From contig NZ_JAHLKM010000026.1 of NCBI RefSeq assembly GCF_024449025.1, forward strand, positions 1 to 33,764: 33,764 nt of DNA, in the 5' to 3' direction. Below are positions 24,093-33,559 of this stretch, one piece after another (position 1 is the first letter of the stretch; each line of letters opens with the position of its first letter). The notes beneath the pieces were generated by a model. It saw only the letters and a list, made by a program, of their open reading frames with translations, had not been told where the DNA came from and did not search any database. The position numbers were made by a program, and so were the translations under genes. Origin of the DNA: Natronomonas aquatica. Lineage in GTDB: Archaea; Halobacteriota; Halobacteria; Halobacteriales; Haloarculaceae.

Positions 24093-26540
24093 TCAGTCGT
24101 CGGCGACTCCGGATGCGACCGGCTTTTCGGGAGACGCCTCCGAACCGGTCGCCGTCCGATCCGGAACCGGCGTCCAGCTCGGATCGCCGTCGTAGTGGAA
24201 CGCACGGTGTTTCTGTTGTGGGTCGACGACGGTCAAAGAGAGCCAGCCGTTGTCCAGGAGCTCGATCAATTCACCGTGTTCCGACAGGACCCCGGTCACG
24301 GTATCGATCGGTGCCTCGATAACCGTCGAGAGGCGGAGCGGCTGGTGATACGGCTCGCCGTCGGCACCCATCACCGATTGTATCGGGAGTCCCGTCATCA
24401 GGTCCCCCCCGTTCCCCTGGTAGACGCCGACGTTCCCGACTGGGTTGTGTGTCACTTTCGAGCCGCTCCCGTAGGCCGCGTTGTCGACCGTCGCGAAGTA
24501 GTACTGGGCGTTGATCCACTGGGTGACGACCATCGGCCCGGTCAGGATCGCCTCGAGCGCGTCGCCGTCCGGATCCGTCGTCCAGTCGTAGGAGTGCAGG
24601 AACGCCCGTCCGTCCAGATCGAGTCCCTCGGTCAGCGCACGGCGGCCGACGACGAACCCGGCGTTCCCGGCCAGTCCCCACTCCGGACGCGTCTCCGCCC
24701 AGTCGGCGGCGCGGCGGCGGGTCTCACGGACACCCGAGGCGGTGTCGGCGCCCATATCGCCGGCACGCTCGGCGGCCGCGCCTTCGCGTGCGGTTTCGAG
24801 ATCGGCACGGAGCCTTTCGATGTCGGGCTCGTGTGTCTCGGGGATGGCTCCGGCGTACAGCTCCACCTCGTCGGTCGTCGTGTTGTGTTCGGCGGCGACG
24901 AAGACGGTGTCGTCCGGAACGTCGATCCCGCGATTTCGGAGTTCCGTCCTGACCGCGTCGTCGTTACAGATGGCCGCCAGGACGCGGGCGCTCGGCCCGC
25001 CGGGGTTGCCGGCGCAGGCGCCACAGTCGAGGCTGGAACCGAAGGGGTTGTTCGCTGTCCGGCTGGCGTGTCCGGTGAAGACGACGATGCGGGCGAACGT
25101 CTCCCACCCCATCACCTCGAAAGCCGTCGCGGCGTACTCGACTTTCTCCTCGTGGGTGAGACCCTCATCGAGTTTGTGGGCCGCGTCGGCGTCCGGGTCG
25201 TGGTCGAGCGACGGCTCACAGAACTCGTGCTCGTCGGGAACGCGTTCGCCGACGGTGTCGAGGAGGCCCGAGACCCGTGCCGGGAACAGCGTCCGGGCGA
25301 TCAACGCCGCCCCGTACCCCACGCCGGTACTCTCGACGAAGCTGAACGCGGTCGCAGCGTTCGATTTGAGGCTCTTGAGGGCCGTCTTCCCGGCTTCGAG
25401 CCCGCTGTGCCAGCGGTCGTATTCGTCCCGGCGATCGCCCCCCGCCGTCGGACGGTCCGTGATACGGTGCCGTGCGTCGAGGATCGGCGGGCAGGCGTCC
25501 ACCGTCACGTCCGAGTCGTACCCGGCGTAGCGCATCGGGACGCCGAAGAAGCCGGCGTAGCCGTGGGTCTCGTAGTTACCTGCCGCCTCGATGTGGCGGC
25601 GAACGATCTCCGAGCGCGTGTCGATACAGAAGACCAGCTGGGCGTCCGGGCGGTCCCCGCTGTGGGTTTTTCCTCTCGCCGCACCCGCCCCGGTAAGCGA
25701 TTCGACCAGCCCCGTCCGGTACGTCGCTTCCCAGGCGGCCAGCCAGACCTCGGCGAGCGGGAGGCGTTGTCCGTCCGTCCCGGCGTCGCGTTCCTCGATT
25801 TCGGGCGCTTCGGCCGGAACGAGGGGGGCGTCGAACAGGTCTGTCACCGCCAGGCGGACCGCCAGATACCCCGACAGCGTGATCGGGTACGCCGACTGCC
25901 AGGCGTCGCCGTCGGCGGCGCGCTGTTTGAGCAACCCCGTCCACCCGGGGAGCGCCGTCAGATGGAACTCGAAGATGTCCGACCACCGGCCGACCGGATA
26001 CCCCTCGAGACGGTTTCGGATCGCCTCGATGGGATCGTCCGGAAGGGCCGCGAGCGTCTCGCCGTTCGGGAGGTCGTCGTCGTGGGGAGCGACGGTACGG
26101 AAGGCCCCGTAGAACCCCTGCTCGCGGTTCGGCATGGGCCACTCCGCCTTCCCCTGATCGAGGAAGGCCGCCAGCCACTTCGTCAGGACCGCATCGACCC
26201 GGTCGGTTCCGGCCGTCGTCTCCCGCTCGGCGGTCGCTCCCGTGGCAGCCATACGGTCGAGGGACGCCTCCGGGTCGGCATCGTAACCGTTCTCGGCCAG
26301 CCGACTCCGTAGCATCTCGGGGTCGATCCGGCCCGATTCCCACGCCCGACGGAACAGGTCGGCGCTTGGATAGCCGTCGCCACCGACCACGCGTCCGGCG
26401 TCCGTGACGGCCTCGTGGAACGGCCGGTCCTCGAAGCCGGCCAGCGGGTTCGCCGTCACGAACGAGTGCAGCGGCCAGACGGCCCCGACCGCCTCGGCTG
26501 CTGCTTCGATACCCGCCTCGATCGTCGATTCAGTACTCAT
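24093..26540 (-). CDS. dabA: Inorganic carbon transporter subunit DabA (DUF2309/UPF0753)
   Basis: An 815-residue soluble, zinc-dependent subunit of the DAB inorganic-carbon accumulation complex. It is thought to act as a vectorial carbonic anhydrase, converting CO2 to bicarbonate using energy coupled through DabB. The proposed beta-carbonic-anhydrase-like zinc set is intact: VFCIDTRSE supplies Cys305 and Asp307, and GHASRTANNPFGSSLDCGAC supplies His491 and Cys506. The Cys-x-Asp and His-15-Cys spacings match those reported for the bacterial enzyme. The N-terminal WPLHSFVTANPLAGFEDRPF is also a family hallmark. The start overlaps the dabB end by 11 nt, so the genes are co-translated. Confidence 0.93.
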   Translation of the reverse strand: MSTESTIEAGIEAAAEAVGAVWPLHSFVTANPLAGFEDRPFHEAVTDAGRVVGGDGYPSADLFRRAWESGRIDPEMLRSRLAENGYDADPEASLDRMAATGATAERETTAGTDRVDAVLTKWLAAFLDQGKAEWPMPNREQGFYGAFRTVAPHDDDLPNGETLAALPDDPIEAIRNRLEGYPVGRWSDIFEFHLTALPGWTGLLKQRAADGDAWQSAYPITLSGYLAVRLAVTDLFDAPLVPAEAPEIEERDAGTDGQRLPLAEVWLAAWEATYRTGLVESLTGAGAARGKTHSGDRPDAQLVFCIDTRSEIVRRHIEAAGNYETHGYAGFFGVPMRYAGYDSDVTVDACPPILDARHRITDRPTAGGDRRDEYDRWHSGLEAGKTALKSLKSNAATAFSFVESTGVGYGAALIARTLFPARVSGLLDTVGERVPDEHEFCEPSLDHDPDADAAHKLDEGLTHEEKVEYAATAFEVMGWETFARIVVFTGHASRTANNPFGSSLDCGACAGNPGGPSARVLAAICNDDAVRTELRNRGIDVPDDTVFVAAEHNTTTDEVELYAGAIPETHEPDIERLRADLETAREGAAAERAGDMGADTASGVRETRRRAADWAETRPEWGLAGNAGFVVGRRALTEGLDLDGRAFLHSYDWTTDPDGDALEAILTGPMVVTQWINAQYYFATVDNAAYGSGSKVTHNPVGNVGVYQGNGGDLMTGLPIQSVMGADGEPYHQPLRLSTVIEAPIDTVTGVLSEHGELIELLDNGWLSLTVVDPQQKHRAFHYDGDPSWTPVPDRTATGSEASPEKPVASGVADD

Positions 26541-28017
26541 CGTATTCCTCCGTCGAGGTCAAAAGCGTCTCCGTGGGGGGCCGTGTCGCGTTCAGTAACG
26601 CCACGTACAGACGGTGACTACGCTCGTAGACGCCACGCTCGATCGCGAGATACGCCACGAGGAACGCGACGGCGACGAGACCGTGAGCCGGCGTCAGCGC
26701 TGCCGACTGGCCGACCGCGGGCAGTCCGGCCAACAGCCCGTCGATCACACGGTAGACGGCGGCGTAGACGGCCAGAGCCGGCAGGGCGACGAGCGGGACG
26801 GCTCCGTACCGAACCGCGGCCGGCAAGGCGGCGCGCGTGACGATCTCGCGGGCAGCGTGTAGGACCGTCAGTACGACCAAAAGCGCGAGCAGGAGGCCGC
26901 TATCCAGCCCCGTCCCCTTGCCGGTAAGCGCGGCGAAAAGCCCCCCAGCCGCGAGCGCGGTGACGGCGATGACGGCGACGCCTGCGGCCCCAATCGAGCC
27001 GGTCGGTTTCGCGTTCGCGGGGCTCTTGTGGGCGACCCGGCTGCCCGACGCGAGGAACTGGTAGGCCTTGTAGAAACCGTGCAGGACGAGGTGGGTGATA
27101 GCGGCCCCGAAGAACCCCAGACCGGCCTGCATGATCATGAACCCCATCTGTCCGACCGTCGAGCACCCGAGCGTGCCCTTGACGTCCGTCTGGACCGTCT
27201 TCAGGAGCTTTCCTCCCAGCGCGCTCGCCGCCCCGACGAGCACGATCAGGAGCATGAACCCGCTATCGACGGTGACGACCGGCGCAAAGCGCGCCAGTAA
27301 CACCCCGCCAGCGTTGACGAAGCCGGCGTGCATCAGCGCCGAGGCCGGCGTGGGGGCCGTCATCGACGAGAGCAACCACGTATGAAACGGGAGCAGTGCC
27401 GACTGGACCATCGCCGCCAACAGGAGCGCGCCGGCGGCGAAAAGCACTACTGTCGAGGACGGCGTTTCGACGGCCGAGGCGACGCCGGAGACCGTCGTCG
27501 CTCCGGTGTGCCACCAGAGTGTCGCGAGCGCGACCGCGAGCGACGCGCTGCTCGCAAGGAAGTACCGCCGCGCGATCGAGGCGGCCGCCTGCGCCTGCGT
27601 CCAGCCCTCGACGTGACCGATGAGATCGGCCATCACGAGCCCCATCGCGAGCCAGGCGGCCCCGAACAGCAGGAAACTGTCGGCCGCGACCAGTACCATC
27701 ACGACCAGCGTGAACGCGAACACGCCGCCGAAGAACCGGTCGATCGTCGGACGGCCGGCCATGTAGCGCCGCGAATAGCTGTGGACGATACCGCTGAAGA
27801 ACGCGACCGTTACCCACATTACGACTGTCAGTCCGTCCACGTTCGCGAGCCCGGCGATCTCCCAGCCGTCGCCGGTCCGAAGCCGGACTGCGAGCGCGCC
27901 GCAACTCAGGGCCCACAGGAGCCACACGACCTTGGTCAGCACCGTCGGTACGCGCGACGTCCCGCTCTCCGGCGTCGGAAGCTGTCCAACCGTCGTGGTC
28001 CGTGTTCGGTTTTCCAT
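26530..28017 (-). CDS. dabB: Inorganic carbon transporter membrane subunit DabB (NuoL-like)
   Basis: A 495-residue membrane protein of the NuoL/M/N antiporter superfamily, with about 13 spans. The characteristic HTWLLSSMTAPTPASALMHA (about residues 217-236), DVKGTLGCSTVGQMGFMIMQ (about 278-297) and HLVLHGFYKAYQFLASGS (about 306-323) are visible. DabB is the cation- or proton-driven partner that powers DabA. It is the first gene of the pair, and its end overlaps dabA. A possible regulatory inverted repeat lies about 90 nt upstream. Pairing with dabA distinguishes it from the Mrp subunits in this window. Confidence 0.92.
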   Translation of the reverse strand: MENRTRTTTVGQLPTPESGTSRVPTVLTKVVWLLWALSCGALAVRLRTGDGWEIAGLANVDGLTVVMWVTVAFFSGIVHSYSRRYMAGRPTIDRFFGGVFAFTLVVMVLVAADSFLLFGAAWLAMGLVMADLIGHVEGWTQAQAAASIARRYFLASSASLAVALATLWWHTGATTVSGVASAVETPSSTVVLFAAGALLLAAMVQSALLPFHTWLLSSMTAPTPASALMHAGFVNAGGVLLARFAPVVTVDSGFMLLIVLVGAASALGGKLLKTVQTDVKGTLGCSTVGQMGFMIMQAGLGFFGAAITHLVLHGFYKAYQFLASGSRVAHKSPANAKPTGSIGAAGVAVIAVTALAAGGLFAALTGKGTGLDSGLLLALLVVLTVLHAAREIVTRAALPAAVRYGAVPLVALPALAVYAAVYRVIDGLLAGLPAVGQSAALTPAHGLVAVAFLVAYLAIERGVYERSHRLYVALLNATRPPTETLLTSTEEYDEY

Positions 28018-28425
28018 CGTTTGCTCCGTTTACGACCGATCACCGATATGGGCTACACCCCAACAATCACGGTATCGGTCGTTGCTAAGGTATATACGAA
28101 CAGATTAACTATTAAATCTGTCTATATTACCGTACTGTTCGATAAATGATGATTATAGAACATTATGGTTTCGGAGATGCTCGGCCGATCCGGGATCTCG
28201 TCGGCCGGTTTGCTGTTGCGGCGCGCTACCCGCTCGGGAACCGTTCTACTCGGCGACGAGACGGGGGCACGGGACCGGTGTCTGCCTCCCCCGTGTGGGC
28301 GTGGATGCCGAACGCGCCGCGTTTCAGCCATAGTAGTCGGTAGAAGTCAGTGCAGATCCACTCGCGAGTGTCCGGCCAGCGTGGCTGTCGCTGGCCATCC
28401 GGCTGTGAGTGGTGTGTAAACAGTT
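28018..28425. other. 408-nt spacer between the Lrp-type gene and dabB
   Basis: No convincing gene. The part next to dabB is AT-rich and holds the promoter/operator. The middle (about 28165-28328) is GC-rich, with short frames on both strands that have no recognisable features. The part next to the regulator is the 112-nt inverted-repeat element. Confidence 0.6.
28091..28121 (-). promoter_or_regulatory. dabB promoter with inverted-repeat operator
   Basis: An inverted repeat with perfect 7-bp arms, ACAGATT (28100-28106) and AATCTGT (28115-28121), flanks an 8-nt AT-rich centre. A TATA-like tatata (28091-28096) adjoins it on the gene side. The core ACTATTAAATCT (28108-28119) is repeated with one mismatch upstream of the Lrp-type regulator gene, as ACTCTTAAATCT at 29007-29018. 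A site for that regulator is the simplest reading. Confidence 0.6.
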
Positions 28426-28440
28426 CTACCGACTACTATG
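28329..28440. repeat. 112-nt nested inverted-repeat element
   Basis: Perfect 17-bp terminal inverted repeats, CATAGTAGTCGGTAGAA (28329-28345) and TTCTACCGACTACTATG (28424-28440), enclose two further nested stems: CCACTC/GAGTGG (28358-28363 with 28407-28412) and GGCCAGCG/CGCTGGCC (28374-28381 with 28389-28396, 7-nt loop). The right arm encodes the last four codons and the stop of the Lrp-type gene. It may be a tiny non-autonomous mobile element or a structured 3' RNA. No clear target duplication is seen at the ends. Confidence 0.65.
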
Positions 28441-28926
28441 ACTGTCGCCGTTCTCCGGATCCGTCCCGGGACCGAACTGTTCGAAGGGAGTCGTCTCGTG
28501 GCTTCGAACGAGTACCTCGTCGGCCACCGTCAACCCCATCTCGAGGAGCTCCTGGGCGACCGGGGTGATGTCCTCGTCCGTCTCGCCGATAGCCGTCACG
28601 AGGAGGTTCCGGTCGCCGGTGACCAGTTCCTGTACCGAGACGACGCCGTCTATGGCCAGTATCTCCGGAATGCGGTCGCCGCGTTCGGGGATCGATGCGG
28701 TACAGAACAGCAACATCCGGAGGGGATAGCCCGATCGCTGATAATCCACCTCGGCACTGTAGCCTTTGATCACTTCGTCCGATTCGAGACGCCGGATGCG
28801 CTTTCGGACGGTGCTGTCGGAGGTCTCGGTTCGCTCCGCGATATCCCCCGACGACATGTTCCGGGCGTCCTCCTGTAACGCGTACAGAATGGCTCTGTCC
28901 ACGTCGTCTATATCCACGTCACTCAT
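28426..28926 (-). CDS. Lrp/AsnC-family transcription regulator
   Basis: A 166-residue regulator. Residues ~5-55 are the winged helix-turn-helix (DDVDRAILYALQEDARNMSS, then SDSTVRKRIRRLESDEVIKG), and residues ~65-150 are the RAM/AsnC ligand domain (LRMLLFCTASIPERGDRIPE, VTGDRNLLVTAIGETDED). ATG 28926 is preferred because a minus-strand aataaa box (28951-28956) lies 25-30 nt upstream; a GTG at 28995 would add 23 residues. The gene is co-oriented with dabBA, and its upstream palindrome shares a core with the dab promoter. The last codons (HSSR and stop) lie inside a 17-bp inverted repeat, so the native C-terminus may have been changed. Confidence 0.85.
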   Translation of the reverse strand: MSDVDIDDVDRAILYALQEDARNMSSGDIAERTETSDSTVRKRIRRLESDEVIKGYSAEVDYQRSGYPLRMLLFCTASIPERGDRIPEILAIDGVVSVQELVTGDRNLLVTAIGETDEDITPVAQELLEMGLTVADEVLVRSHETTPFEQFGPGTDPENGDSHSSR

Positions 28927-28999
28927 ATCCGTACGTCCGTCTACGAGCACTTTATTCTGTACGTCGTGCGGCTGTTCCGTCGGGTTTGTTTCCACATTT

Positions 29000-29023
29000 T
29001 TTGTAGACTCTTAAATCTACAAA
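29000..29023 (-). promoter_or_regulatory. Perfect palindrome upstream of the Lrp-type gene
   Basis: TTTGTAGA (29000-29007) and TCTACAAA (29016-29023) are perfect 8-bp arms around ctcttaaa. On the minus strand the centre reads TTTAAG, which can serve as a TATA element. The geometry (8-nt spacer) and core are like those of the dab site, which suggests autoregulation. Confidence 0.6.
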
Positions 29024-29308: not shown

Positions 29309-30526
29309 TGCGGCTTCAATCCTGATTTGCTGGATATAGCTGGCGGAGTTTGATTCGGGCGTCGTCTGTCGTGAACTGCCAGTCGATAGCTGAATCCTCT
29401 TCGTTCCGTGTTCGTTCCCACGCAGCGACCTCCGCACGGAGGGTCGCTGCGTCGGGAATGCGCCGGTTAAGACACTCCGTCCACAAGGAGCTGAACTCAA
29501 TCTCGGCCATGTTCAGCCAACTACCGTGTTCTGGCGTGAAGTGAAACTCAAGCTTGCTGAGTAAGCGACGAGCCTCTTCTGGTGGGAGATGCTCGTTGAA
29601 GGCGTACCGTTGATGCGTGTTCAGATTGTCCATCACCACCCGGATGCAGTCCGCATCCGGGTAGTGATCATCTACCAGCGACTGCATCTGAGCGACGAAT
29701 TCCTGTTTGCGCCGTCTCTCGGTTACTTCGACGTGTCGCCAGCCAATCAGCGGTTCGCTCATCACGAAGAGGTTGCGTGTACTATTCCGTTCGTAGGTGT
29801 AGTCGTACCGAGCGACCGCTCCCGGACGGGCCGGGAGCGGGTCGCGGACTTCCTTGTGCAGTTCCTTGTTGGACTCGTCAAAACAGACGACCGGACGCGT
29901 TTCGTCGTAGGGTTCGTGGTAGAGATCGAGAACGTCCTCCATCTTACAGACGAAAGCAGCGCTGTTCTCCGGCGTAATTACCCAGGATTTGGATCGGTGT
30001 GGGTGCAGTTGTGTTTTTTTAGGATCTGTCGCACGGTTTCGTGAGAGATCGACTCAACGTCGATCTCGGAGAGGGCAACGAAGTGGTCTGCAAGAAGGTG
30101 GAGCGACCAGCGAGAGCGTCCTTCTGGTGGATCGCTGCACGCTAACGCGATGAGGTGTGCTTCTTCGCGTCCGTCGAGTTTGCGCTCGTAGATTCGGTCG
30201 GCCTTGCGGCGAGTGATCGCCGCGAGGCCGTCCTCGGTGTAGCGTTTGCGGATGCGTCCGACCGTTCCGGGATGACAGCCGACGGCTTCACTGACCTGTG
30301 GGTCAGTCAAGCCGTCATCGGCGTGCAAGAGACACCGCGCCCGCGTAAGCTCCCGCGTTTTGTACGTGCCAGCCGAAAGCATCGCGTTGAGTTCCGCTCG
30401 TTCATCGGCAGACAGATCGACAGAGTACTGTTGTGTTCGTGGCATAGGGTGCTTCAGAGAATTTCTGAATACCTTATAGACGCCCTCTAAGTAGATAAAG
30501 CTAGCAGTTCAGGGCTGAAGCCGCAC
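29308..30526 (-). mobile_element. IS630-family insertion sequence (frameshifted transposase)
   Basis: A 1219-bp element with 17-bp terminal inverted repeats, GTGCGGCTTCAATCCTG at 29308-29324 and, inverted, CAGGGCTGAAGCCGCAC at 30510-30526 (15 of 17 match). It is flanked by TA on both sides inside the sequence CTAG. TA duplication at CTAG targets is known for IS630. It is inserted exactly in one of the two CTAG copies flanking the neighbouring 401-bp element, so it arrived last. Confidence 0.85.
29316..30445 (-). CDS. IS630 transposase, two frames joined by a -1 shift
   Basis: Frame 1 (30445 to 29978) gives the helix-turn-helix half (MPRTQQYSVDLSADERAELN, GCHPGTVGRIRKRYTEDGLA). Frame 2 (to 29316) gives the DDE half with all three acidic residues in CFDESN, VMDNLNTH and HGSWLNMAEIE. 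The frames meet at an A7 run on the minus strand (30014-30020). After a -1 slip there, reading continues TQLHPHRSKSWVITPENSAA into the second half, which fits the family well. So either programmed -1 frameshifting makes the full protein, as known for some IS630 members, or one A has been lost. Zero-frame translation stops after KKHNCTHTDPNPG. Confidence 0.8.
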
Positions 30527-32419: not shown

Positions 32420-33559
32420 TGATTAAGATAACATTTAAAAGTCAAGGAACTGTTCGCACCACTTCTTTGCGAAGCTGACGCGTTTCGTTATTTTCTCGAA
32501 AGTTTCCTGAACGAGGTCTTTGAATTCCGCTTCGCTCTCAACGACGATTGGTGCCATCGTCCATTTGAGATACTTCCAAACTTGCTCGATTGGGTTCAGG
32601 TGCGGTGAGCTTGATGGAATGAAAATCAGGTCAATCCCGAGTTGATGCGCACGCTTGCGCGTGTATTCACATCTATGTGAACCGTGCTTGTCCAAGACGA
32701 GCAGAATCCGCTTGCCGGGATTCTGCTCGCGGATCTTCTCTAATACCCCGCAAATCTGCTCTTTCTCTTCGTTTTCAGTGAACGTTACCAGACTCTCACC
32801 GTTGAGGGCGTAGAATCCGACCGCAGAATCGTGTGTCTTGACTAACTCCCGTTCGATGTGGGGGTCGTCAACGTACCAAACACGCCGCGAATTATCGTAC
32901 GGCTGTGGCTTCGATGCATCAAAAAACCCGAGGACGGTACCGCCATCAGTGCAAATATTATCCTCAACAATCCACCCTTCTTCCTCTTCTCCCTCACGTT
33001 TGTTGTGTGGCTGGTCGTCCTCGTCGAGCGCGTCGTCGACGCGCTCTTCGAGGATTTCATCAGGGTTCTCTGGCCGATGTGGACGCTTTGGTCGTGGTTT
33101 CGCGTACGAGAGACCGAGTTCCCGAAGGAAGGTACCGAGGTAGTTTGGGCTGTAGGAAACGCCAAATTCCTCCTGAAGAAGATGCTGAATCTCCTGTGAT
33201 TTCCACGGTTGGCCGTCACGAAGCATTTCCACCAGCTCGTCTTGCTCATCCTCGTCGAGTTTCGGGGGCCGGCCGCCCCCGAAACTCGGCATCAGCCCTT
33301 CTAAGCCGTCCTCGTTCCAAGCATCCGCCCAGCGACCACCGGTGGCGGCCGACCGACCTTCGCGGTCGGCGGCCTCCGGAATTGAGTCGCCCTTGTAGAG
33401 ATTCTTCAAAAACCCAAGACGGCGGACGTGGTGATCGTCTTCGGCCTCACGTAGCAGTTCATCGATTTCTTCCTCAGTCAAGTGATGCTCAATCTCCTTT
33501 CGACGTGAGCGCTCCATTACTCATTATCAAGCTTAACTAACAAAAGTTTTCGTACTCAT
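32419..33559 (-). mobile_element. Second IS630-family element, intact
   Basis: A 1141-bp element bounded by TA at 32417-32418 and 33560-33561. The imperfect terminal repeats ATGATTAAGATAACATTT (left) and ATGAGTACGAAAACTTTT (inverted right end) match at 14 of 18. It splits the IS1595 transposase gene. Its ends differ from those of the first IS630 element, so it belongs to another subgroup. Confidence 0.75.
32435..33517 (-). CDS. IS630-family transposase, full length
   Basis: A 360-residue DDE transposase. The N-terminal helix-turn-helix half includes GFLKNLYKGDSIPEAADREG and SFGGGRPPKLDEDEQDELVE (to about residue 110). The catalytic domain has LGFFDASKPQ (first Asp, about 200), ILLVLDKHGSHRC (second Asp, about 277) and SSPHLNPIEQVWKYLKW (Glu, about 310). 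An acidic insert (KREGEEEEGWIVEDN, about 175-190) is typical of halophilic adaptation. The frame is uninterrupted and the catalytic triad complete, so the enzyme may be active. It is the only clearly intact transposase in the window. Confidence 0.9.
   Translation of the reverse strand: MERSRRKEIEHHLTEEEIDELLREAEDDHHVRRLGFLKNLYKGDSIPEAADREGRSAATGGRWADAWNEDGLEGLMPSFGGGRPPKLDEDEQDELVEMLRDGQPWKSQEIQHLLQEEFGVSYSPNYLGTFLRELGLSYAKPRPKRPHRPENPDEILEERVDDALDEDDQPHNKREGEEEEGWIVEDNICTDGGTVLGFFDASKPQPYDNSRRVWYVDDPHIERELVKTHDSAVGFYALNGESLVTFTENEEKEQICGVLEKIREQNPGKRILLVLDKHGSHRCEYTRKRAHQLGIDLIFIPSSSPHLNPIEQVWKYLKWTMAPIVVESEAEFKDLVQETFEKITKRVSFAKKWCEQFLDF

Follow-up and report, generated by a model that had tools for sequence, protein, structure and literature searches.

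The window, the whole 33,764-nt stretch of contig NZ_JAHLKM010000026.1 analysed here, comes from the 3.21-Mb genome of Natronomonas aquatica and carries three co-oriented genes on the minus strand: an Lrp/AsnC-type regulator gene (lrp, ATG at 28926), dabB (ATG at 28017) and dabA, which dabB precedes and overlaps (Table 1). The gene map confirms the first-pass annotation, made from the sequence of this stretch, in placing lrp next to dabBA and in the same orientation. The locus encodes a DabA (PF10070) and a NuoL-like DabB in a single operon, as is characteristic of a DAB pump, and inorganic-carbon transport is the predicted activity of the pair.

Mobile elements are also present. Positions 28331–28439 hold a MITE-like element, about 110 bp long, whose terminal inverted repeats are perfect over 17 bp; the genome holds 16 copies, 92–100% identical, and the copy at the 3′ end of lrp provides the last four lrp codons and the stop codon. 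IS630-type transposase genes lie at 29316–30445 and 32435–33517, the first of them directly upstream of lrp and consisting of two adjacent open reading frames (an HTH part and a DDE_3 part).

Table 1 Genes and sequence features of the lrp–dabBA locus, in window coordinates
Feature	Position	Strand	Evidence or remark
lrp, Lrp/AsnC-type regulator, 166 aa, ATG start	28426..28926	-	AsnC-type HTH PF13404, 8e-12
dabB, NuoL-like membrane subunit of inorganic-carbon pump	26530..28017	-	PF00361, 1.8e-35
dabA, probable inorganic carbon transporter subunit	24093..26540	-	PF10070, 9e-263, entire length
Candidate operator box 1, GAAACCATAATGTTCTA	28156..28172	-	Site score 16.4; aligned in 48 promoters
Candidate operator box 2, TCGAACAGTACGGTAAT, just upstream of TATA box	28126..28142	-	Scores 11.9 / 13.3 on the two strands
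dabBA TATA box, TTTAATA, heart of the dab 12-mer	28110..28116	-	Conserved in alignment; fixed position relative to boxes
Candidate operator box 3, ATAGTTAATCTGTTCGT, between TATA box and predicted start site	28096..28112	-	Score 12.1
Predicted hairpin in dabBA mRNA 5′ leader	28032..28082	-	81% pairing in the outer helix, 43 sequences
lrp-proximal promoter element (putative function), AGAATAAAGTGCTCG	28946..28960	-	Aligns with relatives' conserved element, ~28 nt before ATG
Inverted repeat upstream of lrp, 8-bp arms	29000..29023	.	Real, in this genome only; operator score -4.8

The regulator belongs to the Lrp/AsnC family by its N-terminal AsnC-type winged HTH, which matches PF13404 over residues 6–48 with 45.2 bits against a cut-off of 27. 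For the C-terminal part, Pfam gives no match to a RAM family (beta-alpha-beta-beta-alpha-beta). The regulator profile aligns with solved Lrp proteins across the HTH and the greater part of the C-terminal domain, up to about residue 136, and a predicted structure of low confidence (pLDDT 62.9) contains the strand and helix order of the RAM domain. A Foldseek search with this low-confidence model returned Lrp/AsnC proteins as top matches, at a TM of only about 0.3. The protein falls below the NCBIfam equivalog cut-offs for haloarchaeal LrpA1 (47.6 bits versus 250) and Lrp (38.6 versus 190), scores which indicate that it forms an orthologue group separate from these known regulators.

Haloarchaea nearly always keep this regulator adjoining the inorganic-carbon pump genes. 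Among 391 haloarchaeal genomes of at least 90% completeness, with the lrp orthologue counted at E < 1e-60, 234 have both lrp and dabA, one has lrp only, four have dabA only and 152 have neither; of the four dabA-only cases, two lie at contig edges and two concern DabA fragments. Every one of the 28 informative named genomes has the lrp orthologue adjoining dabBA, as do nearly all other relatives compared.

The dab promoter contains three 13-bp sites of the form [GA]A[AC]C-N5-GTTC, starting at 28096, 28126 and 28156 with a spacing of exactly 30 bp. All three boxes are imperfect inverted repeats, and the TATA box lies between boxes 2 and 3. Across haloarchaea, the conserved promoter footprint reads AACCATAATGTTCTATAAT ... 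CGAACGATTTG.TAATATAGA.AGATTTAATA..CA.TCTGTTCGTA, with the GAAC of box 2, invariant or nearly so in the promoter alignment, placed 39 bp from the GTTC of box 3 in 58 promoters and 21 or 22 bp from the GTTC of box 1. Sites were scored with a matrix whose symmetry comes in part from the way it was made, with GTTC as the anchor for boxes 1 and 3 and GAAC for box 2; the left halves of boxes 1 and 3 are weak. A profile of the dab promoter finds one strong site in the N. aquatica genome (E 8e-18). The next match (E 0.04) is a partial one in AT-rich DNA, and with no second convincing site a wider regulon in this genome was rejected. Applied to 145 genomes, the same profile gives a single strong site in each of 90, all of which are dabA-positive, and two in G019, a genome with two dab loci. 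These three evenly spaced sites are probably where the regulator binds.

Related sites also occur away from the dab promoter. A divergent amidohydrolase gene (PF01979), missing in the window, adjoins lrp in 29 loci (for example L014, 6468–7484, and L009, 2993–4009), in many relatives sitting between lrp and dabB, and its promoters score a median of 13.6 with a matrix built from dab promoters only, compared with 3.0 for shuffled sequences. In genome G003, where lrp and dab are 54 kb apart, the dab promoter retains the three-box ladder and the amidohydrolase promoter adjoining lrp retains a recognisable site, which fits a pairing of lrp with the dab promoter but does not prove it. Genome G044 has lrp and gives no DabA hit; its ladder (L072, at about 2483, 2513 and 2543, with 60 bp from box 1 to box 3) precedes an MFS gene, two genes ahead of lrp, and is the best profile match genome-wide but a weak one (E 0.0036). 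The amidohydrolase, G003 and G044 sites are three independent hints that the boxes may be tied to the regulator, and not to dab alone. The G044 cluster itself (L072, 2480–8061) comprises lrp and genes for a NarK-like MFS transporter, a universal stress protein and an anaerobic CO dehydrogenase.

Alternatively, some other transcription factor could read the ladder, with the adjacent Lrp having another role and the linkage reflecting the shared ancestry of a mobile cluster. Such a factor would suit the persistence of the ladder in G003 with lrp unlinked and its presence in G045 on a contig, at the contig edge, on which lrp was not found, and our own assignment of the sites to Lrp is read from sequence. 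However, no other gene known here tracks the ladder, the ladder lies near lrp both at the amidohydrolase gene beside it and at the dab-less G044 locus, and a spacing of three helical turns is typical of archaeal Lrp proteins. We regard this alternative as distinctly unlikely.

The reading that we favour, and consider likely, is that a dedicated local Lrp/AsnC-type factor acts on the adjacent dabBA genes through a three-site operator, repressing them when the operator is filled, and that it also controls the divergent amidohydrolase gene where one is present. Regulator dimers would bind the three imperfect inverted repeats, and the 30-bp spacing, about three helical turns, would place the boxes on one face of the DNA, with box 1 upstream, box 2 next to the BRE/TATA region and box 3 downstream of the TATA box, ahead of the start site. 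Dimers on all three boxes would wrap about 75–100 bp, hide the TATA box and repress dabBA, and partial filling or a change of effector would allow transcription. We infer binding, wrapping and repression at the dab promoter from these sequence features. Since box 3 separates the TATA box from the start site, a fully occupied ladder should block the promoter, and repression is thus the direction expected from box geometry alone; a partly occupied ladder might instead activate, as has been reported for Ss-LrpB (PMC6497280). We can also envisage a broader version, in which the signal is inorganic carbon status and the protein is a class-wide archaeal regulator, the first Lrp/AsnC member tied to CO2/bicarbonate supply, with a three-dimer wrap on dabBA and the amidohydrolase gene and the mRNA leader as a possible second layer. 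We think this version unlikely.

The leader in question belongs to an mRNA predicted to start near 28086 and is predicted to form a hairpin. Over 43 sequences, 66% of cells pair in the whole structure compared with 21–46% in slid controls, and the outer helix has compensatory changes from A-U to G-C (7) and from G-C to A-U (5). The mean MFE z is -2.0 in 54 dab leaders. Evidence for the hairpin is moderate, because its loop aligns poorly and some leaders, such as that of L025, are without it. Most haloarchaeal transcripts are leaderless, which makes a structured dab leader unusual. The conserved block, which includes the TATA box and then the leader hairpin, could be explained as a strong core promoter and a structured leader with no dedicated regulator site, but the conserved stretch runs about 50 bp beyond the TATA box, as far upstream as box 1, the boxes keep a fixed phasing of 30 bp, and the divergent promoter carries such sites again, making this explanation very improbable.

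The first-pass annotation had located the operator differently. It proposed that Lrp binds a shared core, ACT[AC]TTAAATCT, within inverted repeats at the lrp and dabBA promoters, giving both autoregulation and control of uptake. These elements exist: the plus strand has ACTATTAAATCT at 28108–28119, about 91 nt from the dabB ATG, and ACTCTTAAATCT at 29007–29018, about 81 nt from the lrp ATG, identical at 11 of 12 positions, and the repeats ACAGATT-8-AATCTGT (28100–28121) and TTTGTAGA-8-TCTACAAA (29000–29023) are present as described. Since the 12-mer was chosen by comparing the two upstream regions, the fair null is to shuffle both of them; matches of at least 11/12 then arise in 114 of 500 dinucleotide shuffles (23%), and in 56 of 500 when the promoter-proximal parts are taken alone. 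Perfect 7-bp-arm repeats with short spacers appear in 12–16% of shuffles, and the 8-bp arms seen at lrp, which do favour the proposal, are less frequent (3%). At such frequencies the pair of 12-mers carries little weight by itself. In the genome, ACTMTTAAATCT occurs exactly at these two places only, a further point for the shared core, but with up to one mismatch it has 8 copies against 10 for a reversed control and is therefore not enriched as a motif.

Relatives also weigh against the shared core. The 12-mer and its arms are absent upstream of lrp in 61 of 61 other genomes with the regulator, including those that keep the lrp–dabBA order, a loss that, for the lrp side, the first-pass annotation had itself named as refuting; the best match there is 9/12, equal to that in shuffled sequence, and none reaches 10/12. 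In relatives' dab promoters many good matches are found, since the 12-mer at dab is the TATA box itself, AGATTTAATA. The inverted repeats with 8-nt spacers were rejected as a conserved unit, the dab repeat being perfect in just 3 of 58 promoters and the lrp 8-8 repeat occurring at that place in no relative; one Halorubrum carries an unrelated 8-8 repeat. The element at lrp also has a negative operator score (Table 1). It may have been acquired locally, since it lies in an AT-rich stretch adjoining the IS630-type transposase gene. We conclude that the 12-mer match is a chance one involving an ordinary promoter TATA box, and reject it as a shared operator, a reading to which we now give hardly any credence. 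The putative operator that relatives do conserve at dab has another sequence, one that the first-pass annotation did not mention.

Autoregulation of lrp through a dab-type site was also rejected: with the dab-box matrix, lrp promoters score as shuffled DNA does (median 2.5 versus 2.7). No operator site common to the lrp promoters of the 61 relatives was found. What relatives have in its place, and the window too, is an element around TAAAGT about 28 nt from the lrp ATG: of 62 sequences, 25 have TAAAGT no more than 45 nt from the start, and 40 have RAAGW. In Halorubrum (L010, L017 and L018) another palindrome, GTGGC-TAT-GCCAC or a close variant, covers the proximal part of the lrp promoter, possibly an autoregulatory site or one for another regulator. 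The broader claim that Lrp controls inorganic-carbon uptake gains strong support from genomic context and the promoter footprint, but its original basis, the shared core, and the proposed autoregulation gain none.

Our literature search found no paper naming a regulator for archaeal DAB pumps. The near one-to-one pairing of regulator and pump in 234 haloarchaeal genomes, together with a defined 75-bp candidate operator, makes carbon-uptake control in heterotrophic archaea testable in Haloferax volcanii, where HVO_2410/HVO_2411 are the predicted dabAB (PMC8305020). The locus also illustrates that a comparison of two sequences can select a TATA box yet overlook the probable operator around it.

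The gene pair is that of the DAB pump (dabAB), a DabA of PF10070 with a NuoL-like partner. Whereas bacteria often have LysR or PII genes linked to the pair (PMC5700660), here an Lrp/AsnC gene is linked to it. Archaeal Lrp dimers bind inverted repeats of 13–17 bp that are two or three helical turns apart (PMC2995911), and the candidate dab sites, 13-bp inverted repeats at 30-bp phasing, are predicted to be bound in this manner. The closest likeness is to Ss-LrpB of Sulfolobus solfataricus, which has an autoregulatory three-site operator, with the neighbouring porDAB and permease genes as targets, and wraps about 100 bp around three dimers (PMC4046817). Both systems have an Lrp/AsnC-type protein, a single control region with three dimer sites at regular intervals (predicted sites in our case) and neighbouring transport and metabolic genes as targets, again predicted here (PMC4046817, PMC2995911). 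They differ in that the three candidate sites here lie on the transporter promoter and not on the regulator's own, with no sign of autoregulation, and in that the half-site is GTTC/GAAC, compared with TTGCAAAATTTGCAA in Ss-LrpB. The feast/famine regulator FL11 (PH1519), whose dimers bind individual inverted-repeat sites (PMC2995911), belongs to the same family and is related by profile and fold search; FL11, which has lysine and arginine as effectors, represents a different orthologue group.
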